The notes beneath the pieces are model-generated. The model was not told the origin of the DNA. It saw only the letters and a list, made by a program, of their open reading frames with translations, and did no database searches. A DNA stretch of 64,000 bases from Haloarchaeobius salinus (GTDB taxonomy: Archaea; Halobacteriota; Halobacteria; Halobacteriales; Natrialbaceae), in NCBI RefSeq assembly GCF_024464185.1, contig NZ_JANHAU010000007.1, positions 62,001-126,000 on the forward strand, read 5' to 3'. Numbering within the stretch: position 1 is the first letter of the stretch; every line of letters starts with the position of its first letter. A program made the position numbers and the translations under genes. Of the stretch, positions 32,315 through 47,389 are shown piece after piece.

Positions 32315-34093
32315 ATGTCAGACGATGCGGAATTGCCCGATGTTTCACCTCAGATCTCGTATTCTATTGACGATTCCTCGGCCGCAACCCGCGCACTTTC
32401 GGATGACTCCGAGACTGCCACCGGACATCTGTTGAATGTTCAGGCCCGTGAATTCGAGATTGCGCAGGGTCAGCAGGAACTGCTCTCCGTCGAAGAAATA
32501 AAGGACCGAATCAAGCTGCTTGACCACCAGCTTCAGGCGGCACACCGTGCGCTCTTCCAGATGAGTGGGGGAGCACTCTTCGCGGACGAGGTTGGACTCG
32601 GGAAGACAATCGAGATCGGGATGGTCCTAAAGGAGATGGATTTCCGCGATACTCGAGATACATTCCTCATTATGACTCCTGCTCAATTAGCTCCCCAGTG
32701 GCAGAACGAACTCCAGGAGAAGTTCGGTCTCGACTTCGTCTGTAACTACGACGACGACTTTCTCGGCTTCGATGCGCACGACAAAATCATCGCGAGTGTC
32801 GACACTGCGAAATCGAAGACGAACCGAGACGATGTTCTCAATCGCCGCTGGGACGTCGTCGTTCTCGACGAGGCCCATTACGTGCGCAACGAAGACACAA
32901 TGCGGTACGAACTGATCGACGAACTCGACTACGGTGAAGCGTTCTTCGCGACTGCGACACCGATCCAGAACGATATCTCCGACCTGTACAATATTGTCGA
33001 CCTCATCCGGCCCGGAATGTTGGGTACTCGTCAACAGTTCGACCAGCGGTACGTCGTCGACAGTGACGATGCGCAGATTAAACGAGCCGACGAACTCCAA
33101 GAAAAACTCAACCGGGTGATGATTCGGAACCGGCGCGAAGAGACGAAGATCGATTTCACGAACCGAGAAGTCCACACGAACATCTTCGAACCGTCGAGTG
33201 CTGAAAGCGAACTCTACGATGCGGTCACGGACTACGTCCGTTCGAACTACTCCAGCCAAGGGGCTCGCCATCTCGTTCTGTTTACACTCCAGAAAGAGGT
33301 CGTCTCCAGCCCGTATGCCGTTGAACAGACGATTGACAACTGGGTTAGCGATGACGAGAAACACCTCACTTCATCAGAACGTGAGCACCTCGCTGAAATT
33401 CGGGAGATAATCGGGGATATCAGTCGCACGACGAAGCAAGAACGCCTCAGTCATATCATCGAGACGATACGCGACCAGATTGGCACCACACGAGCAGTCG
33501 TGTTCACGCAGTTCAGGCCGACACAAGACGCTATCGCGGACGGCTTGAGAGACTTGGACCTCCCGGTTCACATCGTGAACGGCGACCTCTCCAGCAAAGG
33601 AAAGGAACGGATGGTTGCAAAATTCCGTGATGAGGGCGGTGTGATGGTGGCGACCGATTCGATCAGTGAGGGGCGAAATATGCAATTCTGCAACGTCCTG
33701 GTCAACTACGACCTTCCATGGAACCCGATGAAGGTAGAACAGCGGATTGGCCGTGTCGATCGGATTGGCCAGGACCGTGAGGTCCACGTGTTCAATATGG
33801 CGCTTGAGAACACGATAGAGGAACACGTCCTCGACAAACTGTTCGGGAAGATCGACCTCTTCAATCAGTCCATTGGCGGCCTCCGAGATATCCTCTCACG
33901 GATGGAGAAGTCTGGCTCGGACTTCGAGCGGGAGGTGTTCGAGAAGTTGCGGCATGCGGATTCCGAGATCGAACTCGAGAACAATTTCGAGGAGATGGCC
34001 GTTGATCTCGAAGAGAATACCGAGGCCCAAGAGAAGATGGACGACTTCAATCGGCGAGTATTCGATACTTTCGAGTTCGGTGAGAGCGCATGA
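32315..34093 (+). CDS. SNF2-family ATPase (RapA/HepA-like)
   Basis: A 592-residue SF2 protein of the SNF2 group. Motif I DEVGLGKTIEIGM is at about residues 89-101, motif Ia IMTPAQLAPQWQNEL at about 124, motif II LDEAHYVRN at about 184, motif III FATATPIQND at about 211, and the second domain ends with VEQRIGRVDRIGQDREVHVF at about 475. SNF2 proteins remodel or translocate along double-stranded DNA and are core parts of DISARM (DrmD) and related defence systems, but this one lacks the extra N- and C-terminal domains of DrmD. Its TGA overlaps the ATG of the zinc-repeat gene (ATGA), so they are coupled. Confidence 0.9.
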   Translation: MSDDAELPDVSPQISYSIDDSSAATRALSDDSETATGHLLNVQAREFEIAQGQQELLSVEEIKDRIKLLDHQLQAAHRALFQMSGGALFADEVGLGKTIEIGMVLKEMDFRDTRDTFLIMTPAQLAPQWQNELQEKFGLDFVCNYDDDFLGFDAHDKIIASVDTAKSKTNRDDVLNRRWDVVVLDEAHYVRNEDTMRYELIDELDYGEAFFATATPIQNDISDLYNIVDLIRPGMLGTRQQFDQRYVVDSDDAQIKRADELQEKLNRVMIRNRREETKIDFTNREVHTNIFEPSSAESELYDAVTDYVRSNYSSQGARHLVLFTLQKEVVSSPYAVEQTIDNWVSDDEKHLTSSEREHLAEIREIIGDISRTTKQERLSHIIETIRDQIGTTRAVVFTQFRPTQDAIADGLRDLDLPVHIVNGDLSSKGKERMVAKFRDEGGVMVATDSISEGRNMQFCNVLVNYDLPWNPMKVEQRIGRVDRIGQDREVHVFNMALENTIEEHVLDKLFGKIDLFNQSIGGLRDILSRMEKSGSDFEREVFEKLRHADSEIELENNFEEMAVDLEENTEAQEKMDDFNRRVFDTFEFGESA

Positions 34094-37000
34094 GCGTCGA
34101 CGACGTCGGCTCTCTCAATCGCCTCGAGACACGACGGTTCACGGCATCGACGATCCAAGCCTTCGGCGGTAAAATAGATCGAAGCCAAGCTGATTGCTGG
34201 CGAGTCACCCTCCCGGAGCCGTTAACAAATCTTTCGGAAAGTCGGGAAGTGGCAGTCGTCTTCGATCCGAAAGACCAGCAGCCGGGTCGCGAAGAACTCT
34301 TGATTCAGCCAGGATCACTCCCGTTCAACGAGCTTTTGGGACTAACAAAACAGGAGGTATCAGTCGGGAGAATCCACCTCTCGGCAGCAGATCTGCAAAC
34401 TCCGCTCCCGGACGCACTCGACGTGTCAGAGCTGACTGTTCGAGTGGATGAGTTCGAACCAGAACAGACTGCAGATGCAGTCTCGTTCCATTTCCTCGTC
34501 GAAATGGAGAGTGTTTCATCATTCCACCGGGAGCGGTTCGAAACAGTTACGCTGGATCTTGCGACTGGGGGACGTCTCCCCGATCTCACCCAGCGCCTAC
34601 TGGCCCACACGAGTAATCTCGCCAATTCTCACCGAACGGTCTCGATAGATCCCGAGGACGAGGTCGTCGAGGACCGCTACGAGACGGCAGTCGAAGAGGT
34701 CGAAGCACGTATCGAAGACGACGCCGCAGAACTGCTCCAGGAGGCGACCGAAGCCGCTGAGACGCGGAGTGAAGAGATCAAGGATCTATACGATCAACGG
34801 CGCCAAGAGGCACGGGAGGAGTTCCGCGGCGGCGCCCTCAGGAGACGAAAAGAGGCATTCGCCGAACGGGAGCGGGAAGAAATCGAGGAGATGGTCGCGA
34901 GACACGACGTCGCCGTGAACGTGACGCTGGTCGGACTGACTCTAGTGGCACACGATAAAGGGTCCCTCTCTCTCACCCTCGACGACGGAGAGAACACTGC
35001 AAGCACGACTGTGCAGTACGCACCAGCCACAGGGACCGTCGATCAGTTCGATTGTGCGACTTGTAGCACTGGATTCGGTCCGAAAACTCGCCCCCAAGTC
35101 TGTACATGCGGGACTGTCGTCTGTGCTGGTTGTCTCAACGTGTGTGAGTCATGTACCTCACCCGGGTGTCCAAACTGTGACCCCCCAATGTGTGAGTGCG
35201 AACTCTGCCACCGAGTCGAGTGTCACGACTGCAACTCAGAATGTGCCCACTGTGGTTCGATAGTCTGTTCAGCTCACATCGAAACGTGTGGGGCAACCGG
35301 CCAAGAAACCTGTCTGGCTTGTGGCCAGCCATGTAACACCTGCGACGAGTTCCACTCCGACGACCATCTCGCCCAGTGTACAGTCGACGGAGACCTCCAT
35401 TGTGACTCACACTGCAGTCACTGCGGGGTTTGCTCTGAGACCATCTGTTCCGACCACGCAGACGCCTGCACTGCATGCGAACGAACCCTCTGTCCGAGCG
35501 ATCGAGTGTCCTGCGAGACATGTGGCGACACCCGGTGTAGAGACGACGCGTTTGCCTGCGACGGATGTGGAGGCTATCATTGCGCAGAAGACATCGCAAC
35601 GTGCGAGGTTTGTGAGGGTCAGTTCAGCGAGGGTCATCTCGCAGAATGTGCAGTTTGTAGCCGGGCAGTCTGTGAATCGGACCATGGACAGTGCCGGCTC
35701 TGCGACGACATCGTCTGTACCGAAGACAGCATTGAGTGTGCGACGTGCGGAGCAGTAACCTGCCTAGAGCACGCAGAGGAGTGCGACCTATGTGACGAGT
35801 CGTTCTGTGAAGACCACTTGGAGAGTTGTGGCACCTGTGAGACCACAGTCTGTGACTCCGACCGCGTTCACTGTACAGCCTGTGATGCAGTTGCCTGTTC
35901 AGACCACGCACAGAGTTGCGACGCCTGCAACGACGATCTCTGCCCTGAGCACGGGACCAGTTGCAGTGAGTGCGAGGATACACTCTGCCCTGAGGACACT
36001 GTTCAGTGTGCAGACCACGAGGAACCACTGTGCCCGAGCCACTCGGAAACCTGCATCCAGTGTGAACGAGCGTTCTGCTTCGACCTCGTCCAAACATGCC
36101 AGTACTGCCAGGAACCCGTCTGTGACTACGACTCCGGAGAGTGTACCCACACAGGGAAGGCTGTCTGCTCTGACCACCTCGAATCTTGCACAGTCTGTGA
36201 GGACTCGTACTGTCCAACCCACGGCGCAGTAACTGAGATAGCCTCTGAGTTCCGTTGCCTCGATCACTCCGCTTGCTGTGCCGAATGCGGCGGTGATTTC
36301 GCCCCTGAGAATCTGATCGGCTGTACGCACTGCGGCGAGTTGGTCTGTGACTCTGATGCGGGCGAATGTGTAGTGTGTGACGAGCACTTCTGCATGTCTC
36401 ACGGCGTGGTGACGGGGCTGACGGGAAGCTTCCACTGTCACGACCACGCGGAACAGTGTGTCGAGTGTGAGGGGTATTTCGACGAGGCGAATCTAGTTGA
36501 CTGCGATCACTGTGGTGAACCGGTCTGTGATTCGCATAGCGAGGAGTGTGCCGAATGTGGCGACGTACTCTGCCAGACCGATAGTGGACGGTGTTCAGTT
36601 GACGATGCAACTCTCTGCGAGAAGCATCTTACTTCCTGCAGTGTCTGTGGCGACGATCTGTGCGACAATCACCTCTCGGTCTGCACATCCTGCGGCGATG
36701 TGATTTGTCCAGCCCACGCTGAGCCCTGTGCAACCTGTGACGCCCTCCACTGCCCGGCCCATCTCGAAGAGTGCGCTGACTGTTTCGACTCCCATTGTTC
36801 ACAGCACATCGAGGCCTGCAAGAGCTGTGGTGATCAGTACTGCGCCGATCATCTCAGCAGCTGTGCTGAATGCGGTGAGCCGGTGTGCATCGTGGACAGT
36901 ACTCTCTGCCGCGGATGCGATGAGCTGGTGTGTCCGGACCACACTGATCGCTGTAGTGTCTGTGACGGCGAATTCTGTCCAAACCATCGCTCTCAATGTG

Positions 37001-37536
37001 GGACGTGCGGCGAGACACTCTGTTCAGACCATAGTGTAGCGTGTGGCGACGATGGGGTCGAGCACTGCTCGCAGCACATGTCGAACTGTGAGGTCTGCGA
37101 ACGCGAAGCGGGAATGAAAGACGTACAACCACGATGTGAGGACCATCTCGTCTCCTGTGTGGTTTGTCAAGAGCGACTCTGCCGTGAGCACGCGTCTTGG
37201 GCTCCAATCACGAAGGCAGCGGTGTGTGCTGAGCACCGAGCCGAATGTTCGACTTGTCGGCAATACGTTTCGGAGCGTGTGCTCCAGAATGGCAAGTGCT
37301 CCACCTGCCGTAAACTGAGATCTGACGGACTAGCACTGCTGCCGGACGACTTCGAACTCCCGGAGGCAGTGAACACCGACTCGGGGGAATTCGGCGTGAA
37401 TTCTCGCTATGTCGTTGCTCGTCAGTCACACCTGCTCCGCTCCGACGAAATCATCGTCGTGAGCCGCGAGAGCGAGTCAGTTGTTGAGCGACACAAGATC
37501 GGGATGCTCGCGAAGATCACAGGAGGGCGACTATGA
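34090..37536 (+). CDS. Giant Cys/His zinc-repeat protein, partner of the SNF2 ATPase
   Basis: A 1148-residue protein. Residues 1-190 form an uncharacterised globular part (QADCWRVTLPEPLTNLSESR). Residues about 190-275 are a charged coiled coil (EEVEARIEDDAAELLQEATE). From about 320 to 1075 runs an array of more than forty units with the form C-x2-C-x4-C-x2-[HD]-x3, 15 residues per unit, for example CTSCGDVICPAHAEP. Each unit offers four metal ligands, or pairs of units could share ions. A conserved C-terminal piece (RYVVARQSHLLRSDEIIVVS) closes it. I know no described archaeal protein with this layout. It may be a scaffold or DNA/RNA-binding arm for the helicase. Both ends overlap neighbouring genes (ATGA). 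Confidence 0.85.
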   Translation: MSVDDVGSLNRLETRRFTASTIQAFGGKIDRSQADCWRVTLPEPLTNLSESREVAVVFDPKDQQPGREELLIQPGSLPFNELLGLTKQEVSVGRIHLSAADLQTPLPDALDVSELTVRVDEFEPEQTADAVSFHFLVEMESVSSFHRERFETVTLDLATGGRLPDLTQRLLAHTSNLANSHRTVSIDPEDEVVEDRYETAVEEVEARIEDDAAELLQEATEAAETRSEEIKDLYDQRRQEAREEFRGGALRRRKEAFAEREREEIEEMVARHDVAVNVTLVGLTLVAHDKGSLSLTLDDGENTASTTVQYAPATGTVDQFDCATCSTGFGPKTRPQVCTCGTVVCAGCLNVCESCTSPGCPNCDPPMCECELCHRVECHDCNSECAHCGSIVCSAHIETCGATGQETCLACGQPCNTCDEFHSDDHLAQCTVDGDLHCDSHCSHCGVCSETICSDHADACTACERTLCPSDRVSCETCGDTRCRDDAFACDGCGGYHCAEDIATCEVCEGQFSEGHLAECAVCSRAVCESDHGQCRLCDDIVCTEDSIECATCGAVTCLEHAEECDLCDESFCEDHLESCGTCETTVCDSDRVHCTACDAVACSDHAQSCDACNDDLCPEHGTSCSECEDTLCPEDTVQCADHEEPLCPSHSETCIQCERAFCFDLVQTCQYCQEPVCDYDSGECTHTGKAVCSDHLESCTVCEDSYCPTHGAVTEIASEFRCLDHSACCAECGGDFAPENLIGCTHCGELVCDSDAGECVVCDEHFCMSHGVVTGLTGSFHCHDHAEQCVECEGYFDEANLVDCDHCGEPVCDSHSEECAECGDVLCQTDSGRCSVDDATLCEKHLTSCSVCGDDLCDNHLSVCTSCGDVICPAHAEPCATCDALHCPAHLEECADCFDSHCSQHIEACKSCGDQYCADHLSSCAECGEPVCIVDSTLCRGCDELVCPDHTDRCSVCDGEFCPNHRSQCGTCGETLCSDHSVACGDDGVEHCSQHMSNCEVCEREAGMKDVQPRCEDHLVSCVVCQERLCREHASWAPITKAAVCAEHRAECSTCRQYVSERVLQNGKCSTCRKLRSDGLALLPDDFELPEAVNTDSGEFGVNSRYVVARQSHLLRSDEIIVVSRESESVVERHKIGMLAKITGGRL
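35046..37313 (+). repeat. 45-bp coding period encoding 15-residue zinc-ligand units
   Basis: The gene has a strict 45-base period through most of this stretch, seen as TGT/TGC codons at positions 1, 4 and 9 and a CAC/CAT or GAC/GAT codon at position 12 of each 15-codon unit. Units differ at most other positions, so this is an old protein repeat under selection and not a young minisatellite. A few units carry short insertions (near residues 715 and 760). Confidence 0.85.
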
Positions 37537-38465
37537 GTCGCCGAGGCGATGCACCGACTTGGTACAGTCCAGGTGAGGTGCAATCGACAGTTCGTCGAGC
37601 GCTCTCGAACAATGTCGACCTGGAGAAGATCGTCTCCGTATTGGGTGAACGCGAGCTCGACAACGTTCAACACTCCCGCGTCGAAGCGATCATCGAAAAT
37701 GTCTCTGAGAACACCGAAGAGGCGTCCATCAAACCGCATCTCTCACAACCTCCGTCGACAAAGGCGGAGCCTCGTGAGGTTCGCGGGCGACGGCTAAGCG
37801 CCGATGATTTCGAGTTTTTCTCGAATAGGGAAGCTGCCCGCGTACTAGGACTGGTTCTCGAGTCGTTTGACGGGAACACACTCAGGATGGGACCCCACGA
37901 CCAGGTTGAATCCGATCTAGTCTGGAACCGACAGGGTGGAACCATCGCACTCCTGATCGTCCCCACAACCGAGGAAGCTGTAGACTCTCACCAGGTCGAC
38001 GCACTTCTTGAAGGCCAGACAGTTCCCGAAGACCGTCGAAGCCCCTCCGAACTCGCGGTGGTGACTAACGGGTCGTTTACGGATCAAGCATTGGGTTACG
38101 CCGAAACGAACGACATCCGGTGCTATGATGGCGGCCATCTCGAAGCCTGGCTCCAGCGTGTGCTCGTGCCGATGGATGCCGTGGGAACGGTCTTGGAGGA
38201 AGGCGAAGATCATGATGGGCCAATCTTAGAGATCGTCGATATCCCGTCGATCCCAGCTCCCCGCGCCACAATCGCTCCCCTGGAGATCGAACCGGTATTC
38301 GAAGTGGAGATGGGCGAAGAGGAGCCAGGGCCCAAAGGTCGGTTAGGACGGGATGACCCACTGAAGGGCACCGACCCTGACACAGGCCAGACCGGGACGC
38401 TGTACGCTGACCCAGAAGAAGACGGCGAGTACGGAGCGTTCGAAGACTACCTGGAGAGTATCTAA
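37533..38465 (+). CDS. Mrr-like protein with an altered active site
   Basis: A 310-residue protein. Residues about 95-210 follow the Mrr-type restriction-endonuclease fold: FFSNREAARVLGLVLESFDG, then HDQVESDLVW, GGTIALLIVP, LAVVTNGSFTDQALGYAETN and a final CYDGGHLEAWLQRVL. The first acidic residue (ESD, about 127) is present. The (E/Q)-x-K pair, which should sit in ALLIVPTT (about 140-145), is not there, since Pro replaces the usual Lys. It may be a DNA-binding relative without cleavage. The N-terminus and the acidic C-terminus are not recognised. Its ATG overlaps the zinc-repeat gene's stop and it is followed by the two-module paralogue 5 bases later. Confidence 0.7.
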   Translation: MSRRGDAPTWYSPGEVQSTVRRALSNNVDLEKIVSVLGERELDNVQHSRVEAIIENVSENTEEASIKPHLSQPPSTKAEPREVRGRRLSADDFEFFSNREAARVLGLVLESFDGNTLRMGPHDQVESDLVWNRQGGTIALLIVPTTEEAVDSHQVDALLEGQTVPEDRRSPSELAVVTNGSFTDQALGYAETNDIRCYDGGHLEAWLQRVLVPMDAVGTVLEEGEDHDGPILEIVDIPSIPAPRATIAPLEIEPVFEVEMGEEEPGPKGRLGRDDPLKGTDPDTGQTGTLYADPEEDGEYGAFEDYLESI

Positions 38466-38470
38466 TATTC

Positions 38471-39367
38471 ATGACAGCGATATTTGAAGAGGAGTCCACG
38501 ACAGTCCCAGTGAAGAATGGCCAATCGATCACCATCGAACCTGGAAATCCCTGGCCGTCTGCGTACCGAGGGTCAAAGTACAGTCTGGTCTCGGACGACG
38601 ACTTCGAGGATACAGTGTTGAAATGGGAGCACCGAGACCTCAACATCTTCACAGAACCACCGTCAGGTCTCAGGCGAGCGCTGGTACTTCTTGGGAAAAG
38701 TGGCGGTCGCGGGAGCATCCGTGTGACTGCAGATAATGAGGTTCTCACGAAGATCCCCGCAAAAGACTACGAACACGTTGACCAGGCACCGGTCGACAGT
38801 GGATGGGTCCCCGTCTACGTCGGCAAACTCCAAACCCCGATCGATTTCGAGGAGGTTGAGACTGATCCGACGCCACCCACCCAGTCGAGTATCAAGGTGT
38901 GGCAGGGTTTCACGTTCAATAACGGTGAACGATGGGCCGTCGGTCACGACGGCAAACTTGTTTGGAAGTGGCGGGATTATCGATTCGAGTCCGCGTTCAA
39001 TCACCCCGAACTGGTTGCCGAATATCAGAAATATCGAGGGACTGCGGGCCGGCTCTACATTACCGAGAATGCCCATGTCTGGGTGAATTTGCCAAGACAA
39101 GACATTAGATCGGAACAGAAAGAGACGGTTCGGAGAGCCATTACTCAGTGGAAACAAAAGGCCGAAGAGGCTGATGATACTGCCTCGCTTCGACTGGTCA
39201 ATCGTCGACTGGTCGCAACCAGCCAGCAAGACGACCCCTCGACTGGTCACTTCCCTATCCATATCGGTCATCTGGGGAACTTCGACGGGGGGAAGATTCC
39301 GCGGCCGGTCGTCGACGACGAGAGCTACTACCAGGCAGTCTGTGAGTACGAGACAGTGTGGGAGTAG
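38471..39367 (+). CDS. Two-module protein of unknown function, paralogue of the 31.2 kb protein
   Basis: A 298-residue protein. Module one (about residues 20-125) begins GNPWPSAYRGSKYSL, has GGRGSIRVTADNEVLTKIP and ends PVYVGKLQTP. Module two (about 143-272) has GRLYITENAHVWVNL and ends FPIHIGHL. The first module closely matches the second module of the protein at 31249-32124 (GDLWPSVYDGAKYSF, GGSLRVTPWNDVLTL, PIYVGQI). So two paralogues with duplicated modules stand at the two outer/inner ends of the divergent operons. No catalytic motif is visible; a binding role is likely. It is the last gene of the plus-strand operon. Confidence 0.7.
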   Translation: MTAIFEEESTTVPVKNGQSITIEPGNPWPSAYRGSKYSLVSDDDFEDTVLKWEHRDLNIFTEPPSGLRRALVLLGKSGGRGSIRVTADNEVLTKIPAKDYEHVDQAPVDSGWVPVYVGKLQTPIDFEEVETDPTPPTQSSIKVWQGFTFNNGERWAVGHDGKLVWKWRDYRFESAFNHPELVAEYQKYRGTAGRLYITENAHVWVNLPRQDIRSEQKETVRRAITQWKQKAEEADDTASLRLVNRRLVATSQQDDPSTGHFPIHIGHLGNFDGGKIPRPVVDDESYYQAVCEYETVWE

Positions 39368-39426: not shown

Positions 39427-39781
39427 TCTGTAGCAATTAGCTCGCCCGTATTTCTGTAACGAAAATCTGTAACGTGTGTCTGTATCGGGCTCCCTCGGCC
39501 GGAATCCCGAACAATCACCCACTCGGACGGCCGTATTGAACATCTGTAACAGTTCTCTGTAACGTCCATTCGTGGCAGTCGCCCTATACAGAATGCGGGA
39601 CAATCGTTCGTACCCTAAATCTGTTACAGAAGTCTGTAATAGGCTTCAGTAATAGCTAACCGTAACAGATTGACAGGGCGGGGACAATCCAGATCACCAT
39701 AGTGCACCATGGCAGAGATCCATTACAGAGATCTATTACAGATATTGCTCTGTATTGTCTGACACAGATTTATGATACAGG
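39427..39781. repeat. Iteron arrays, TCTGTAAC at 13-bp spacing, candidate centromere or origin
   Basis: Octamers close to TCTGTAAC recur at exact 13-bp steps in three forward clusters: starts 39453, 39466, 39479; 39543, 39556 (a degenerate third at 39569); and 39620, 39633, 39646, 39659. A single TCTGTAGC lies at 39427. A fourth cluster is inverted (ATTACAGA-like) with starts 39722, 39735, 39761 and 39774, keeping the same 13-bp grid. The last cluster overlaps the parA TATA-like box. This is the layout of a partition centromere or replication iteron region, and the overlap suggests that a ParB-like protein represses parA. Confidence 0.8.
39767..39778 (+). promoter_or_regulatory. TATA-like box of parA
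   Basis: AGATTTATGATA is centred about 28 bases before ATG 39800 and lies inside the inverted iteron cluster, so a protein bound to the iterons would block transcription. Confidence 0.5.
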
Positions 39782-39799: not shown

Positions 39800-40795
39800 A
39801 TGATAACGGCCGTGGTCTATTCAGAATCGGGCGGGACCTACAAAACGACGATGACGGCCAACATCGCCGTCGCACTGGAGCGAATGGGGCTGAACACGCT
39901 CGTTCTGGATTTAGACCCACAGGAAGGGAATCTGACGAGCCTGTTCGACGCTGGTGAGAACCGGAGCGATCCAGAGGCGGATAATCTGGTAAAGCACATC
40001 CTCGACATGCCAGACGGGGAGTTCGACGACCTCATCGAGACGACCGACGAAGGCATCGACATCATTCCGAGCCACGACATGCTCGGGGACTTCACCTCGA
40101 ATCTGGAGCAGAAGATCTCGTACGAGACAGGGATGAAAAACATGAGTCGAGAGGAGTATCCACGCTTCGAGCTACTCTACGATCTCCTCTGGGAGAAAGA
40201 GAAGTTGCAGGAGCAGTACGACGCGATACTCATCGACCCGAACGCACGTGCGGAAGATCTCCTCTACAACGCTATCTACGCGCTCAGAACGCTCGTGGCC
40301 CCAGTCAAGCCCGCAGGTAAGGGGAACCTGAGTCTCGAAGGGCTCGAGGAGCTCGTCGGGAACATGAGCAGTCAGCTCGAAATCGAGATTGGGCTTTCCT
40401 GCGTTGTCCCCTCTGGTGTTGGCCAGACGAACGCGCATCAACAGTACCAGCGGCAGTTCGAGAACACGGATGCATTTGACACGCCTGTCGCAATCGGAAA
40501 CCGCGAGAGTCTCATGGACGCCATGTGGGAGGCCAGAGGCTCTGCGTTCAAGGTTGTCGAGGAACGGTGGAAGACGTTCCAACGAGATGGCGAGATGGTG
40601 AGTGAGCCTGGACAGCGTCGAGTGCGGGAAAGGGAAATCGAAACGCTCCGGAAAATCTACGAACTCGCGTGGTTCATTGCGACCGAAACGTTCGATGCTG
40701 ACGTCGACCCGGTGCTCGAGCTGGACATCGATGACTACGAGACCCGGACAATCGACCTACGAGCGGACAAGGAAACGGAGGCGACCACCGCATGA
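39800..40795 (+). CDS. parA: ParA/SojA-like partition ATPase
   Basis: A 331-residue deviant-Walker ATPase. The start ITAVVYSESGGTYKTTMTAN has the GG-x-x-KTT deviant Walker A (about residues 10-16), and VLDLDPQEGNLT (about 37) is the switch region with DLDPQ. AILIDPNARAEDLLYNAIYA (about 146) is the Walker B equivalent. It drives plasmid segregation with a partner that binds the iterons upstream. Its start is 20-80 bases after the inverted iterons, and its stop overlaps the next start (ATGA). A decayed second copy lies at 54.1-54.5 kb. Confidence 0.9.
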   Translation: MITAVVYSESGGTYKTTMTANIAVALERMGLNTLVLDLDPQEGNLTSLFDAGENRSDPEADNLVKHILDMPDGEFDDLIETTDEGIDIIPSHDMLGDFTSNLEQKISYETGMKNMSREEYPRFELLYDLLWEKEKLQEQYDAILIDPNARAEDLLYNAIYALRTLVAPVKPAGKGNLSLEGLEELVGNMSSQLEIEIGLSCVVPSGVGQTNAHQQYQRQFENTDAFDTPVAIGNRESLMDAMWEARGSAFKVVEERWKTFQRDGEMVSEPGQRRVREREIETLRKIYELAWFIATETFDADVDPVLELDIDDYETRTIDLRADKETEATTA

Positions 40796-41274
40796 ACAAT
40801 TTCAAATCCGGTTCAGGAAACCTCGATTTCGGGGGTGATGAGAGCGACGAGGAGCCAGAAGAGGACGAAGAAGACGTGAGTGTAGAGTCATTCCCTGAAG
40901 AGGAGCCCGAGCAGACCGAGCAGGAATCACCCGTAACAGCCGACAGTCCCTCGATAGAACGAGCTCGTTCTCCGGCTGAATCCCGCGATTTAGCCACTGA
41001 AGGGCCCGATTCGGACGAAAATCCACGAACAGAGTACCCATACTTCATTCGGCGGAACAACGTCGGGGACGAGCGAGACAAGCGTCTGGAGATCCACGTT
41101 CGACAGAACGTTGCGGATCAGGAAGCCGACTTCCGGAACGAGCTCGCGGCACAACTGGGGACAGGGGAGGTCTCAAAAACGGATGCTCGCGAGTTTGCAC
41201 TGCTTGCTGCGTTTGAACACCCAGAACAGGTCGCGGAGCTGATGCGGGATGAGGGATTTGGTGCGCTCGACTGA
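40792..41274 (+). CDS. Small acidic partner of ParA, candidate iteron-binding protein
   Basis: A 160-residue protein. The first 85 residues are acidic and disordered (DESDEEPEEDEEDVSVESFP). The C-terminal part, EIHVRQNVADQEADFRNELA with VSKTDAREFALLAAFEHPEQ, is helical and begins with a strand, which would fit a ribbon-helix-helix-like fold, but I cannot prove it. It overlaps parA by 4 bases. In haloarchaeal plasmids such small second genes are the likely ParB analogues. Its target would be the TCTGTAAC iterons. Confidence 0.65.
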   Translation: MNNFKSGSGNLDFGGDESDEEPEEDEEDVSVESFPEEEPEQTEQESPVTADSPSIERARSPAESRDLATEGPDSDENPRTEYPYFIRRNNVGDERDKRLEIHVRQNVADQEADFRNELAAQLGTGEVSKTDAREFALLAAFEHPEQVAELMRDEGFGALD

Positions 41275-41880: not shown

Positions 41881-42348
41881 ATGACACGCCGCTGGGTTAC
41901 CTGTGGAACACCCACGATTCCTGGAATACTGAACCCAATGACTGCAGCGTGTGATCGGGGATTTGTTCCGGACACCATCCACATCCTGTCGAATCCACCA
42001 GTCATGGAGTATGTCGAAGAGACACGGGGCCTGATGGCCGAAGTGATAGCTGCGTATGGAGGCGATGCAGAAACAGAAGTCCACGAACTAACGCACGAGA
42101 CCGATTTTACGAGCATCGTCGACTTCTACCGAACACAGGTGGAGCAATCAGCAGATGACGATGAGGTAGCGATCGACGTCACGCCAGGGCGGAAGTTCAT
42201 GTCCGCAATTGCGTTCCAGGCAGGTATCCAGTTCGGTGCGGACCACGTCTACTACTTTCATCGGAAGTCTGGGGGATACTACGGACAGTTCTATCCCGAG
42301 ATTCCACGCACAGCGACCGACCTGATCGACTTCACCGAGGTGCTGTAA
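41881..42348 (+). CDS. CARF-like domain protein
   Basis: A 155-residue protein with a Rossmann-like pattern. It opens with a strand and loop (RRWVTCGTPTIPGILNPM), and later has DVTPGRKFMSAIAFQAGIQF (about residues 99-118), which matches the D-x-[ST]-x-G-x-K-x-M core of CARF ligand-binding domains, followed by GADHVYYFHR. CARF domains bind cyclic oligoadenylates or related signals and control linked effectors. Its stop TAA overlaps the ATG of the PIN-domain gene by one base, so the two form a coupled pair. No CRISPR array or cas gene is visible in the window. The domain call is by pattern and not by a profile search. Confidence 0.65.
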   Translation: MTRRWVTCGTPTIPGILNPMTAACDRGFVPDTIHILSNPPVMEYVEETRGLMAEVIAAYGGDAETEVHELTHETDFTSIVDFYRTQVEQSADDDEVAIDVTPGRKFMSAIAFQAGIQFGADHVYYFHRKSGGYYGQFYPEIPRTATDLIDFTEVL

Positions 42349-43385
42349 TGGAGGTCAGCCGACGTCGGTTGACCGTCCTGCTGAATGCATTGTATGATGA
42401 GGGTGTCGACTCGATTCCGGTCGAGCACCCAGCCAGTGACATCGGAGAGTTGGCCCGTATCGAACTTGAGACAGATGGACAGGTGACCGTCAGATTCACA
42501 CAGGGGTCGTTCACCTACCAAGAGAACCGAGAGGGTATCCCCGCAAAGTACGGGGAAGCGGCGCACGATGATCTCCCAGACGCCGAGACGTATACCCGGG
42601 CAGCAGTCGCGAGTTCTCTTGTCGAGCTCGACAACCGCGATGAGATAGACGCGTTCTTCGACCGGCATGGATACCCCGACCTCGAGGCTGGGCACGGACC
42701 GGTCGTCCTTGGATTGGACACGAACATCATTCCCTGGCGACTTCCTGAGATTCTCGGTGTTGACAGCGACACCGGCGACACTGACGAGAAGGGTCGTGCG
42801 CCAACGAACGGCTATGCGCTGGCCACGGGTGTGAAGGAAGAGCTCGACTGGCACTACAAGCAGTACAACACACACGAACTCACCGCCGCCTTCGGGGAAG
42901 AATTCACACGCCTCGACAATCAGCCGGCAGGGAGCAACCGAGAGGGGTTCATGGGACTGTATGAGTATCGACGCCTCCGGACGAACCGGACGGTCGATAT
43001 CATAGAATCCAACACCGGTGATGAAGGAATCGTCGACGCCTACGAGGCTTTTAACGAAGAGAGTCGCAAGACTGCGGTGCTTCTGAGCAACGACCGCGGC
43101 TTCATCACCAGAGCAACTGAGGCTGGCGTTCCCGCCCAGCACGTCGACTTCCCGCTCGACATGCCGCGGAAGGTGACCGGAACCTGGACTGACGCCTGTG
43201 AACTGCTGTACTACCTCGCGGTGCTGTTCGGTGTCGTCAAGCTCCCGAAGGTCACGGTGTACGGTGTCTGGAACGGCAAAGATGGTCGTCACTGGCAACA
43301 CGAACAGCTCGACATGGACTGTCGCAGTCCCAAGATAGAACCCAGACTGACGCGGGATCTGCGGATTCTCGATGCGACAGACTGA
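42348..43385 (+). CDS. PIN-domain nuclease-like protein
   Basis: A 345-residue protein. The acidic PIN residues are visible: GLDTNIIPWR (Asp about 124), a Glu in GVKEELDWHY (about 164) and LLSNDRGF (Asp about 247). The first 110 residues are an extra domain (PASDIGELARIELETDGQVT), and the region after the PIN core is conserved-looking (DACELLYYLAVLFGVVKLPK). PIN domains cut single-stranded RNA or DNA. Coupling to the CARF-like gene suggests a signal-controlled RNase effector. The long insert between the Glu and the last Asp is unusual for small PIN toxins. Confidence 0.75.
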   Translation: MEVSRRRLTVLLNALYDEGVDSIPVEHPASDIGELARIELETDGQVTVRFTQGSFTYQENREGIPAKYGEAAHDDLPDAETYTRAAVASSLVELDNRDEIDAFFDRHGYPDLEAGHGPVVLGLDTNIIPWRLPEILGVDSDTGDTDEKGRAPTNGYALATGVKEELDWHYKQYNTHELTAAFGEEFTRLDNQPAGSNREGFMGLYEYRRLRTNRTVDIIESNTGDEGIVDAYEAFNEESRKTAVLLSNDRGFITRATEAGVPAQHVDFPLDMPRKVTGTWTDACELLYYLAVLFGVVKLPKVTVYGVWNGKDGRHWQHEQLDMDCRSPKIEPRLTRDLRILDATD

Positions 43386-43394
43386 GTCCAGAAT

Positions 43395-44957
43395 TCAACA
43401 GAGCAGCAGATAGAACCAATAGGGGAGCTGGATCACGCGATTCTCGCGAAGCGTGATCGGCTCCTCAGTCGAGACGGTATCGCCCGTCAAGAGGAATCCC
43501 ACCGGAACATCGTATTCGTCGAGGAACTCGGTAATCACGTCGAGGGAGTCGTCGATAGGCGGTCGATACGCGAGGACAACAGGCACTGGTGTGTCATCGA
43601 TATCGAGGACGAAATCGACCTCACCCTGTCTCCCGCGCCAGAACTGGACGGATGGGTCGCTCTCGGATTCCTGTGCGGCATTGACGCCATAGGCGAACCG
43701 CATACTGTGGTCGAAACCGGCGACACGGGCCAGGTCAGCTTCTCGGCCGAAATCACTCAACACGCGATCGGCGTTCCCATCGGCGAGTGCAGTCACGAGG
43801 CCAGTATCTCGAAGGTACAACCGGACTGACCGCGGCCGGGCGTTGTCGTACTCAGTCACACCGGTCAAGAGAAACAGGTCTGCGAGCGCGGGAAGATAGC
43901 TGTCGGCGATAGTTCGCCGGTCGACATCGAATAGCTCGACGAGCTCCTGATACCGTATTGGTTCCGAGCCACGATTATGGGCGGCAAGTGCACAGAGACG
44001 TTCGAGGTCGGCGATCGTCTTGATGGATTCGAACCCAGGGACTTCCTGGTAGAGCGCATCTCGTACTTCCTCACGTAGGCGTGTGTAATCAGTCGTTGTG
44101 AGGTTGGACGCAGAATCGATGACTCCGTCGTGCTCGTAGCTTATCGTGCCACCCATCGCGAGGTAATCCACAACCTTCGACTGGATACGGGGTTCGACAT
44201 CCTCGATCTTCTCGTACTTCCCTCGAAGTTCATCGAGAAGCGGTCCTGTCTCGCCACTCTCGAGGGCTGCTGGGAGGCTCTTTTCTCCGGAGCGTATCGA
44301 AGTCGGACTTACACGGCGTTCGGACTCCTCGAGGTCGGGATAGAGGGTGAAAAGGTAGTCACGGAATTTCTCAGGGAGGATGGGCTGCGTGTCGTACTGG
44401 TTCTCCGGGAAGCCGGCACTCTCGAGTTCACGTTCGACTTGGACCTCGGCACTCGCTGTGACGATAACGTACCGGTCTGCTGCCTCGTCGAGGATATCGA
44501 CGACTGGGGTTCCCCAGCCGTCGATCGTCGGTTTCCCCGGGTGTTCGATCTGGTGGACATCGTCAAGGAAGATGAAATGTGGCTCGGGTGAATCGAGTCG
44601 CCCCAGGATGCGGCTCTCGTAATACCGGACTGCACGTCGGAGTTGCTCGTCAGATTGGAGTTGATACAACGGGTCCGCGTCAAATGGGAGATAGAGAAAC
44701 CGTTCTGGCTCGGCACCGGCTTCGATTCGGTGATGGATGAACTGTTTGCAGAGCGTCGTCTTCCCCGCTCCGCGCCGCCCGACTAGACCAAGCAAGGGCT
44801 GGTCTTCGAACTGACTCCCAGAGCGGTCCGGCCGGGCGAGGTGATAGAAGTCACTCTTCTGCCGCGCAGGAAGTGTGAATGCGGCAGTACCCTGTTCCCA
44901 CCACGGGTTGTGATCGTGGAGGGATTGAACCAGGGAGTTTCGCGCGTCAACTGACAT
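43395..44957 (-). CDS. AAA-family ATPase with DUF4143-type C-terminus
   Basis: A 520-residue protein with ATG at 44957; a GTG nine codons earlier (44984) is possible. GRRGAGKTTLCKQF (Walker A, about residues 60-73) and FIFLDDVHQIEHPG (Walker B, about 130) mark an AAA_14-type ATPase, and the C-terminal part with LYLRDTGLVTALADGNADRV and GEVDFVLDIDDTPVPVVLAY is the DUF4143 domain, whose acidic pattern is like a PD-(D/E)XK fold. Such ATPases are common in archaea and their targets are unknown. It converges on the PIN gene, with about 10 bases between. Confidence 0.85.
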   Translation of the reverse strand: MSVDARNSLVQSLHDHNPWWEQGTAAFTLPARQKSDFYHLARPDRSGSQFEDQPLLGLVGRRGAGKTTLCKQFIHHRIEAGAEPERFLYLPFDADPLYQLQSDEQLRRAVRYYESRILGRLDSPEPHFIFLDDVHQIEHPGKPTIDGWGTPVVDILDEAADRYVIVTASAEVQVERELESAGFPENQYDTQPILPEKFRDYLFTLYPDLEESERRVSPTSIRSGEKSLPAALESGETGPLLDELRGKYEKIEDVEPRIQSKVVDYLAMGGTISYEHDGVIDSASNLTTTDYTRLREEVRDALYQEVPGFESIKTIADLERLCALAAHNRGSEPIRYQELVELFDVDRRTIADSYLPALADLFLLTGVTEYDNARPRSVRLYLRDTGLVTALADGNADRVLSDFGREADLARVAGFDHSMRFAYGVNAAQESESDPSVQFWRGRQGEVDFVLDIDDTPVPVVLAYRPPIDDSLDVITEFLDEYDVPVGFLLTGDTVSTEEPITLRENRVIQLPYWFYLLLC

Positions 44958-45280
44958 CGTTGTCTGAGTATCAGAGCCCACCACAATGGATTTTTCGGGA
45001 GTATTTGACCCGGTGGAGAGATTATTTGACTTCTATAGTACTGGCTACCGCGGGTTCTTAGTTCGTATCGGCAGTGATATTCACCGTCAGGAGGTCGTTT
45101 TTATCGATATAATAGACTAGGATATGATTCTTACCGATGTTTTTAATACATCTTGGAACACATAGTTGCTTGTGGTGGCCGGGAAAGGAACACTGCGATG
45201 TCGGTAATCATCGAGATGGGTTTCCACGGTCGAATCCGGTCACCCGCTGGCTGTACGGGGAAGACAGCGCACCAGAACCG

Positions 45281-47389
45281 ATGAACGCGACATACTCAGA
45301 TCTAAACGAAGGGGAACGCATCGACATCACTGTCGAGTTCGTCTCACGACGAGCGCTCGACAGCGGGGGAAATCGTGTCTGCCGGCTGCTCGTCGAAGAT
45401 GACACCGGCAGCCGATTCGCGATCTTCGTCACGCCCGACAAGGGCTTCCTCGAGGGACTTCGAACGGGGGGGAAGTACACCCTCACCGGCCTCCTCGGAA
45501 GCGCTCCGAGCGGACCGGTGAGCAGAGGAACGCCCGACTGTCCGGCGTGTGGGGGGCCACTGCGGCGAGGGGTTGTCGCTGACGCGGTCGACACCACGAT
45601 TACCGACACGGCCTCGCCACTGGGGGTGGAGCAGCTCTTCGGCATCATCGACGAACAGACCACCGTGTCGCGTGCGGAACGACGAACGGATGTCGTGGAC
45701 GACTGGCAGCCGATGAACGTCGGTGGGAAGAGCGAGTCGGCCGTCACCGCACCCGACTACGTGTGTTCGGACTGCGGCCGAACGCTCGACTCGAGAGAGC
45801 TACACGAGAACCAGGGAGAGATAGTCGACTCGGTGGCCAACGAAAGCCCGGCAGCGGCACCGAGCCGAGCCGCACCTGAGACCGTCGGTCTGGCAACAGG
45901 GGGAGCGAAGGACGTGGAGAACTTTCGCGAGAACATCGCGAACGGCTACACGCCACAGCCGGAGTCGATCAGCACCGAGGGGCTGTTCTACGACTACTAC
46001 TTCGAAACGGGGGAACGGACCGAATCGGACGCGCTCTTCGCGCCGCGATACGCTGCAGCGGCGAGCGAGAATCCACTCACGGGAGAGACCGACCAGTTCC
46101 TCTCCGTCGGTCTGGATTCGACGCTCGCACTCGAGGACTTCCAGCGACCGCAGCTCGACATCGTCACGGTGCTCGACGTCTCGGGGTCGATGAACAGCCA
46201 GTTCGACTCGTACTACTACGATGAACACGGTCGGGAGCGCGAAACAGAGAGTGGCTCCGAGACCAAACTCGAAGCGGCAACGGAGTCGCTGTGTGCGCTG
46301 ACGGAACGACTTCGCGACGACGACCGACTCGGCGTCGTGCTGTACAACCATCGAGCGCACGTCGCGAAACCACTCCGCGACGTCGGCTCGACAGACATGG
46401 ACGCAATCCGAGGACACATCCGCGACATCGCGGCCGGGGGGAGTACGAATCTCGCGGATGGATTCGAAGCAGCTGTCGACATGCTCGTCAAGGACGAACA
46501 GAACGAGGAGTCCCGGTACGAGGATGACGTCGAGCGACGCGTCGTCTTCATGACCGACATGATGCCGAACACTGGTACTACCGACGGGGGCTCTCTCACA
46601 CAGCTGTTCGAAGACGCTGCATCTACCGGGATACATACGACGTTCGTCGGGATGGGGATCGACGCGAATGCGGAGCTCGCTGATACGCTGTCTGGCATTA
46701 GGGGTGCCAACCACTACTTCGTCCAGTCGGGGCAGGAGTTCGAGCAGCGTCTCGACGACGAGTTCGACTACATGGTGACACCACTCGTCTACGACCTCGA
46801 ACTGGAGATCATGGGGGATGGCTACGAGATAACGGCCGTCCACGGGTCACCGAGCGATGACGAACCGTCGGACCAACTCATGCACGTGGAGACGCTGTTC
46901 CCCTCCGCGAAGGAGGACGGGGATGCTCGCGGCGGTGTCGTCCTCGTCGAAGTCGAGCAGACCAAGCCGACCGCCGAGCTGGACCTCGTCGTCTCGTGGA
47001 CCGAACGTGACGGCTCTGAACACAGCGAATCTGTGAGCGTCGAAGTACCCACGGTGGCTGGAACCTACGCGCATACCGGCATCAGAAAGGCGATCGCGCT
47101 AGCTCGGTACGCCCGGGAACTGCGGGCATGGACACGCGACGTCCACGAGCGCGCCGAGAGTTCCTCGGGTGTCGACGACTGGCTGCTACCCGATAATCGG
47201 GGCGAGCACGAACGAGAGTCGGTCTCGCTGGTAGTTTCGACGGGGTATGTGGAGCGCTTCGGTTCGCTCCGCGACTATCTCCACGAGGAGATGGAAGCAG
47301 TAGACGATAGAACGCTTCAGCAGGAACTCAACCTGCTCGAGACTCTCTGTCAGAAGCAGCCGGAGCGACCCCATGAAATGACCGAATAG
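45281..47389 (+). CDS. von Willebrand factor A-domain protein with zinc ribbon
   Basis: A 702-residue protein if started at ATG 45281; the 48 residues upstream look unlike haloarchaeal coding sequence and are left out, although the frame is open. The first 80 residues resemble an OB-type fold (RIDITVEFVSRRALDSGGNR). Two CxxC pairs follow (CPACGGPLRRG; VCSDCGRTLD), forming a zinc ribbon. The vWA domain begins at about residue 295 with DVSGSMNSQF (the MIDAS motif) and includes VVFMTDMMPNTGTTDGG (about 420). The C-terminal part is alpha-helical. The protein has no signal peptide. Its partner, usually a MoxR-type ATPase, is not in the window. Confidence 0.8.
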   Translation: MNATYSDLNEGERIDITVEFVSRRALDSGGNRVCRLLVEDDTGSRFAIFVTPDKGFLEGLRTGGKYTLTGLLGSAPSGPVSRGTPDCPACGGPLRRGVVADAVDTTITDTASPLGVEQLFGIIDEQTTVSRAERRTDVVDDWQPMNVGGKSESAVTAPDYVCSDCGRTLDSRELHENQGEIVDSVANESPAAAPSRAAPETVGLATGGAKDVENFRENIANGYTPQPESISTEGLFYDYYFETGERTESDALFAPRYAAAASENPLTGETDQFLSVGLDSTLALEDFQRPQLDIVTVLDVSGSMNSQFDSYYYDEHGRERETESGSETKLEAATESLCALTERLRDDDRLGVVLYNHRAHVAKPLRDVGSTDMDAIRGHIRDIAAGGSTNLADGFEAAVDMLVKDEQNEESRYEDDVERRVVFMTDMMPNTGTTDGGSLTQLFEDAASTGIHTTFVGMGIDANAELADTLSGIRGANHYFVQSGQEFEQRLDDEFDYMVTPLVYDLELEIMGDGYEITAVHGSPSDDEPSDQLMHVETLFPSAKEDGDARGGVVLVEVEQTKPTAELDLVVSWTERDGSEHSESVSVEVPTVAGTYAHTGIRKAIALARYARELRAWTRDVHERAESSSGVDDWLLPDNRGEHERESVSLVVSTGYVERFGSLRDYLHEEMEAVDDRTLQQELNLLETLCQKQPERPHEMTE

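Follow-up and report, generated by a model that had tools for sequence, protein, structure and literature searches.

A palindromic array of 13-bp pitch as the probable centromere and operator of a two-gene ParA-type partition cassette in haloarchaea

In a 64-kb stretch of Haloarchaeobius salinus DNA (hereafter the window; bases 62001-126000 of contig C7, 218,145 bp, in a genome of 3.85 Mb and 17 contigs), an array of 11-bp palindromes with a fixed 13-bp pitch was found in the gap between a 298-aa ORF (end 39367) and a parA gene (start 39800). Judged from sequence, the array is probably (roughly three chances in four) the centromere and operator of a two-gene ParA-type partition cassette, in which the small partner protein encoded after parA would be the reader. 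The features of the locus are as follows.

39427-39489, no strand: cluster I, with sites at 39427, 39453, 39466 and 39479 and a vacant grid position at 39440
39543-39566, no strand: cluster II, with sites at 39543 and 39556
39620-39669, no strand: cluster III, with sites at 39620 (perfect palindrome TCTGTTACAGA), 39633, 39646 and 39659
39719-39781, no strand: cluster IV, promoter-proximal, the putative operator part, with sites at 39719, 39732, 39758 and 39771 and 39745 vacant; it brackets the TATA-like box
39757-39763, plus strand: GTCTGAC element, about -42 to -44 from the parA start
39769-39774, plus strand: TATA-like box TTTATG, read from the sequence
39800-40795, plus strand: parA, encoding a 331-aa ParA-type ATPase without an N-terminal HTH, with the Walker A motif SGGTYKT that lacks the signature lysine
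40792-41274, plus strand: partner gene, encoding a predicted centromere-binding protein of 160 aa; its start overlaps the parA stop by 4 nt

Site scoring over 39427-39781 showed that the repeat unit is the palindrome TCTGTWACAGA and not an oriented octamer. At a threshold of at least 8 of 11 matches, 14 sites in four clusters were found, with eight neighbouring pairs exactly 13 bp apart, while 2000 dinucleotide shuffles of the region gave a mean of 0.85 sites (maximum 5) and 0.001 such pairs (maximum 1), confirming the 13-base grid proposed in the initial annotation. Its count of at least nine close copies holds when two mismatches are allowed: four copies are exact TCTGTAAC, four more are one base off and two are two bases off. 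Steps within a cluster are exactly 13 bp, or 26 bp across the two vacant grid positions. The orientation reading, in which three forward clusters and an inverted fourth over the parA TATA box formed a design, was ruled out by the palindromic units. With an imperfect palindrome as the unit, the labels "forward" and "inverted" tell which half of the sites in a cluster is better kept, and the octamer is that better-kept half; the fourth cluster thus loses its inversion, and its place on the same grid and around the TATA-like box stands. In relatives, 286 grid sites gave a profile with symmetry around the central base and a weaker two-base spacer preference, so that the array has dyads between sites too.

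Within the window, the 13-bp site pair is absent outside the array, and the strongest 13-bp periodic patches all lie in the array region. When unit pairs with zero or one mismatch were mapped over the 3.85-Mb genome, the array locus was their sole occurrence. A 13-bp period is not favoured in tiles of the window, and lags 7 and 14 stay at or below the shuffle level, while lags 13 and 26 exceed it.

A ParA scan of GTDB genome contigs gave 31 close-relative loci, two of which (L066 and L067) have a broken parA frame; the other 29 and the window form 30 analysable close relatives. A significant 13-bp period upstream of parA was detected in all 30. With the two broken loci pooled in, 167 site pairs were counted at 13 bp, compared with 0.1 in shuffles, and harmonics appeared at 26, 39, 52, 65 and 78. 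Clusters in the family hold two to eight sites each. In blastn searches against plasmids, alignment was limited to the last ~110 bp, the promoter-proximal quarter of the array, indicating that the pitch outlives the sequence. Loss of the spacing in relatives had been named at the outset as evidence against a centromere; the 13-bp step is kept, and that reading was not refuted. L066 and L067 are two close-relative parA copies of Halococcus thailandensis with broken or duplicated frames, either decayed or misassembled.

The period extends to divergent paralogous loci. Of 80 fetched, 68 have an intact recognisable parA-partner pair, and 66 of these have enough upstream sequence; the 13-bp period is present in 63 of the 66 at p<0.05 and in 58 at p<0.01, with 13 or its double as the top lag in nearly all. 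Control regions showed the period in 1/43 cases (1 kb upstream of parA) and 10/94 cases (just downstream of the partner). The palindrome itself differs by partner class, the classes being named after three alternating residues of the partner segment RLEIHVR and its equivalents:

EHR/EFR classes: TCTGTNACAGA
QHQ class: TATCTNAGATA
PFR class: TATAGCTATA
QYR class: GTTAGNCTAAC
QFR class (mixed): TAGTANTACTA
TFH class: TTTGTNACAAA
TYR class: CAGCANTGCTG

When every class was scanned with every motif, the resulting table was almost diagonal, with overlap where motifs are alike. A constant step with changing letters would fit a pitch that is set by the bound protein through touching dimers. The genome of the window carries a second cassette on contig C5 (~32.9-34.2 kb), with a GTGTTCA-type repeat and its own GTCTGAC box; its 13-bp signal is weaker (17, with 19 at lag 26). 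Co-resident systems had like motifs in 5 of 21 pairs, where 5.8 were expected; this enrichment for different motifs is not significant, and plasmid incompatibility is thus not demonstrated.

The array is tied to the parA promoter. Its sites reach 39781, flanking the TATA-like TTTATG on either side, and the distance from this box to the ATG suggests that the parA transcript may be leaderless. Among close relatives, the TATA-proximal box TCTGACACAGA itself lies on the array grid, and 80 of 85 sites within 80 bp upstream of it fall at a multiple of 13. In 67/98 loci, whatever the array motif, GTCTGAC stands some 42-44 bp before the parA start, and it is present in 4/469 control tiles; GTCTGAC-N(3-6)-TTTAT occurs three times in the window's own genome. 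The element has the position expected of a BRE or of a site for an upstream factor. The register between array and GTCTGAC is fixed per class, being 0 in EHR/EFR, 0.5 in PFR, 2-3 in QHQ, 5 in TFH and QYR, and 7 in TYR, though some classes hold few loci and shared ancestry contributes.

The grid over the TATA region in fixed register, together with the better alignment of the promoter-proximal part, would also suit an array that is an operator only, in which the partner represses parA and itself, the many sites serve cooperative repression, and partition, if any, has its site elsewhere. We regard this as unlikely. The array reaches ~300 bp upstream of the promoter, and its clusters, of two to eight sites in the family, far exceed what repression needs; a ParA ATPase with a small acidic-tailed protein is the layout of a partition cassette; and neither a second array of the motif in the window nor a near-exact pair elsewhere in the genome was found.

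The operon and its array form a self-contained cassette. In every close relative with intact genes, parA and the partner gene overlap by 4 or 1 nt; the ParA proteins of these relatives are 73-93% identical, and the closest sampled relative is that of Haloarchaeobius sp. FL176 (ParA 93%, partner 74% identical). No flanking gene is conserved beside the cassette, any other gene being present in at most 6/30 loci, so that the unit is the array plus two genes. The partner family was found in 216/391 Halobacteria genomes and 62/86 genera, so that the element is no rare plasmid type. All 26 partner matches in a 247-genome sample of the phylum fall within one order, and across the genomes sampled the family is confined to haloarchaea. 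Most related cassettes are located on a plasmid or on a contig of plasmid size, and 101 PLSDB records, including Halobacterium pNRC200, carry the partner; contig C7 itself has three orc1/cdc6 genes. Phage records gave distant ParA matches only, such as PhiCh1 ParA (32% over half its length). No tRNA gene was found in the window; a terminal overlap of contig C7 was looked for and none was found, so its circularity is unproven. One haloarchaeal cassette (PUMP01000053.1, ParA 85% identical) is filed under a Candidatus Nealsonbacteria MAG, probably through a binning error.

Several neighbours of the cassette were also annotated. Right after it, at 41881-43385, a CARF-domain protein (PADLOC CARF_m1, E=2.9e-58) and, directly behind it, a PIN-domain protein (CARF_PIN, E=2.3e-22) form a split CARF-PIN pair, which is adjoined by an AAA_14/DUF4143 ATPase (43395-44984, minus strand) and a VWA-domain protein (45137-47389). 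Upstream of the array, at 32315-39367, lies a chain of adjoining or overlapping genes encoding a DrmD/SNF2-like helicase (E=1.5e-77), a 1148-aa cysteine-rich repeat protein without a family, a protein with a weak Mrr_cat match and the 298-aa orphan, which is possibly an undescribed defence island.

The first protein of the cassette belongs to the ParA/MinD superfamily and starts at its Walker A motif. It matches AAA_31 (E=1e-17, from residue 5) and CbiA (3e-13), and its PDB profile matches include Soj, MinD and ParF. Close relatives have the Walker A sequence SGGTYKT or SGGTFKT. In all 98 ParA proteins compared, the signature lysine is replaced by A or S and the catalytic lysine is kept; the conventional ParA ATPase cycle is therefore not to be assumed. 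K174 of the window protein, 159 residues past the catalytic lysine, is likewise invariant (98/98), and our guess is that it substitutes for the signature lysine. The AlphaFold2 model of ParA had a mean pLDDT of 49, too low for use.

The partner has a conserved N-terminal FKSGSGNLDFG, a long, acidic and variable linker, and a conserved C-terminal domain of ~80 aa with the pattern PYFxRRxxVxDER...RLEIHVR...KTDAREFALLAAF.... No significant match to it was found in Pfam, NCBIfam or PDB sequence searches. In RefSeq, many partners are labelled acyl-CoA dehydrogenase (for example NZ_CP031313 162810-163301), which looks like a propagated misannotation, and the NRC-1 partner is labelled a hypothetical protein. 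The beta amphipathicity of the C-terminal domain peaks at RLEIHVR (170-degree moment 0.84, compared with 0.40 at 100 degrees), and this strand followed by two predicted helices suggests the order of a ribbon-helix-helix (RHH) protein. The AlphaFold2 monomer has a confident C-terminal domain that is helical where the RHH strand was expected; hhalign against haloarchaeal RHH_1 proteins gave a probability of 0.5% (positive control 99.7%), and there is no Pfam RHH match. Because the helical monomer and the RHH_1 profile failure stand against the strand signal, the RHH fold is neither supported nor excluded for the partner. Fold searches with the model gave a best Foldseek E of 3.0 and a best VIA-align Z of 4.7, neither of which is meaningful.

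Three putative strand positions of the partner correlate with the motif (partial rho 0.42 given ParA identity). Many ParA columns track motif similarity about as closely as partner columns do, so that motif change does not identify the binder, and shared ancestry may account for it. This agrees with a scheme in which the palindromes are bound by ParA or by an unlinked third protein and the partner only bridges, as does the separation of binder (AspA) and adaptor (ParB) in pNOB8 (PMC5120986). We consider such a scheme very unlikely: an N-terminal HTH is missing from this ParA, whose sequence begins at the Walker A motif; the neighbours of the cassette include no conserved third gene; and the motif is class-specific, for which the C-terminal domain of the partner is the natural candidate. 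That the repeats are replication-origin iterons for an initiator is highly improbable: haloarchaeal origins do have repeated initiator boxes (ORBs) in intergenic regions, but predicted ones adjoin orc/cdc6 genes and have boxes with a terminal G-string (PMC3528665), whereas the palindromes here lack a G-string, no initiator gene is adjacent to the array or conserved beside it, and the nearest of the three orc1/cdc6 genes on contig C7 is >55 kb off.

A centromere with autorepression, for which the initial annotation proposed the 160-residue partner as reader, is accordingly still the best-supported interpretation, given that the spacing is conserved, the array always precedes parA and covers its promoter in fixed register, and the motif varies with partner class. 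In the mechanism that we propose, partner dimers would bind one 11-bp palindrome per 13 bp via the conserved C-terminal domain, and neighbouring dimers would touch, their protein-protein contacts fixing the pitch. The dimers would wind round the DNA, as 13 bp is ~1.24 turns (the initial figure of about 1.2 helical turns was correct arithmetic), so that four sites make almost five turns. Bound clusters would mark the replicon, and the acidic tails, which are probably disordered and carry the N-terminal FKSGSGNLDFG at their ends, would contact nucleoid-bound ParA and stimulate its ATPase, whereupon a ParA gradient would carry sister replicons apart and so stabilise the replicon. As the last grid sites bracket the TATA box, occupation of the whole array would also repress both genes of the cassette.

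Among known systems, the type Ib partition loci (delta-omega of pSM19035 and ParFGH of TP228) are similar in having a small ParA without HTH and a small partner gene (here predicted to encode a DNA-binding protein) in the same operon, with tandem sites upstream that overlap the promoter, where binding would also repress. Different from their 7-bp heptads, the cassette has a 13-bp pitch and 11-bp palindromes; its ParA lacks the signature lysine of the deviant Walker A motif KGGxxK[ST], and no entry of Pfam, NCBIfam or PDB matches its partner. Activation of ParA in pSM19035 takes four or more contiguous repeats (PMC9499535), and the cluster sizes here, from two to eight sites, are comparable. 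The contiguous 7-bp repeats of delta-omega have no counterpart in the cassette. The cassette would work like a type Ib partition locus, yet we do not count it as a regular one: none of the members tested has the signature lysine, and the partner cannot be assigned to any known centromere-binding family.

The SegAB system of Sulfolobales also pairs an archaeal ParA orthologue with an archaea-specific small protein encoded downstream. SegB, a solved RHH protein, recognises a 13-bp palindrome that occurs upstream of segA too (PMC12284271) and wraps DNA (PMC9178275). Its sites are scattered over the chromosome, in contrast to the fixed-step array at the promoter of the cassette itself, and no SegB-like chain was among the PDB matches of partner profiles at E<=10. 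The AspA-ParB-ParA system of the Sulfolobus plasmid pNOB8 is likewise an archaeal plasmid partition cassette with overlapping genes, whose DNA-binding protein spreads into a superhelix from an upstream palindrome; it differs in having three genes with parA last, one 23-bp palindrome and a separate ParB adaptor (PMC5120986), whereas the present cassette has parA first and one partner. As to the ATPase, beta-McdA type 1 of carboxysome positioning is a ParA-like ATPase with the Walker A motif SGGQGKT, which is active despite the missing signature lysine (PMC8262871, PMC9178275); it positions protein organelles instead of DNA and has no centromere. The tyrosine of SGGTYKT recalls KGGVYKT of SopA (PMC9178275).

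A wider proposal, which we put forward only tentatively and hold to be doubtful, is that these cassettes form a haloarchaea-specific partition class, with an adaptor of undescribed DNA-binding fold that would build a rigid filament of 13-bp pitch, and a ParA without the signature lysine that possibly uses K174. The pitch would be conserved while the letters diversify between lineages, which may keep plasmids distinct.

A literature search on haloarchaeal partition, ParA and iterons, of limited reach for subscription papers, found neither this system nor a haloarchaeal plasmid centromere described, and a review counts the features of archaeal centromeres among the open questions (PMC5120986). 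For the present cassette, a site, a probable reader and a rule (fixed 13-bp pitch with variable letters) can now be named. The partner is present in over half of the Halobacteria genomes sampled and also on a plasmid of the tractable Halobacterium NRC-1. Haloarchaeal partition, plasmid incompatibility and autoregulation now become directly testable. The partner classes and their palindromes offer a set of natural variants in protein-DNA specificity built on a single scaffold, and a ParA family has been found without the lysine that is said to define ParA proteins.
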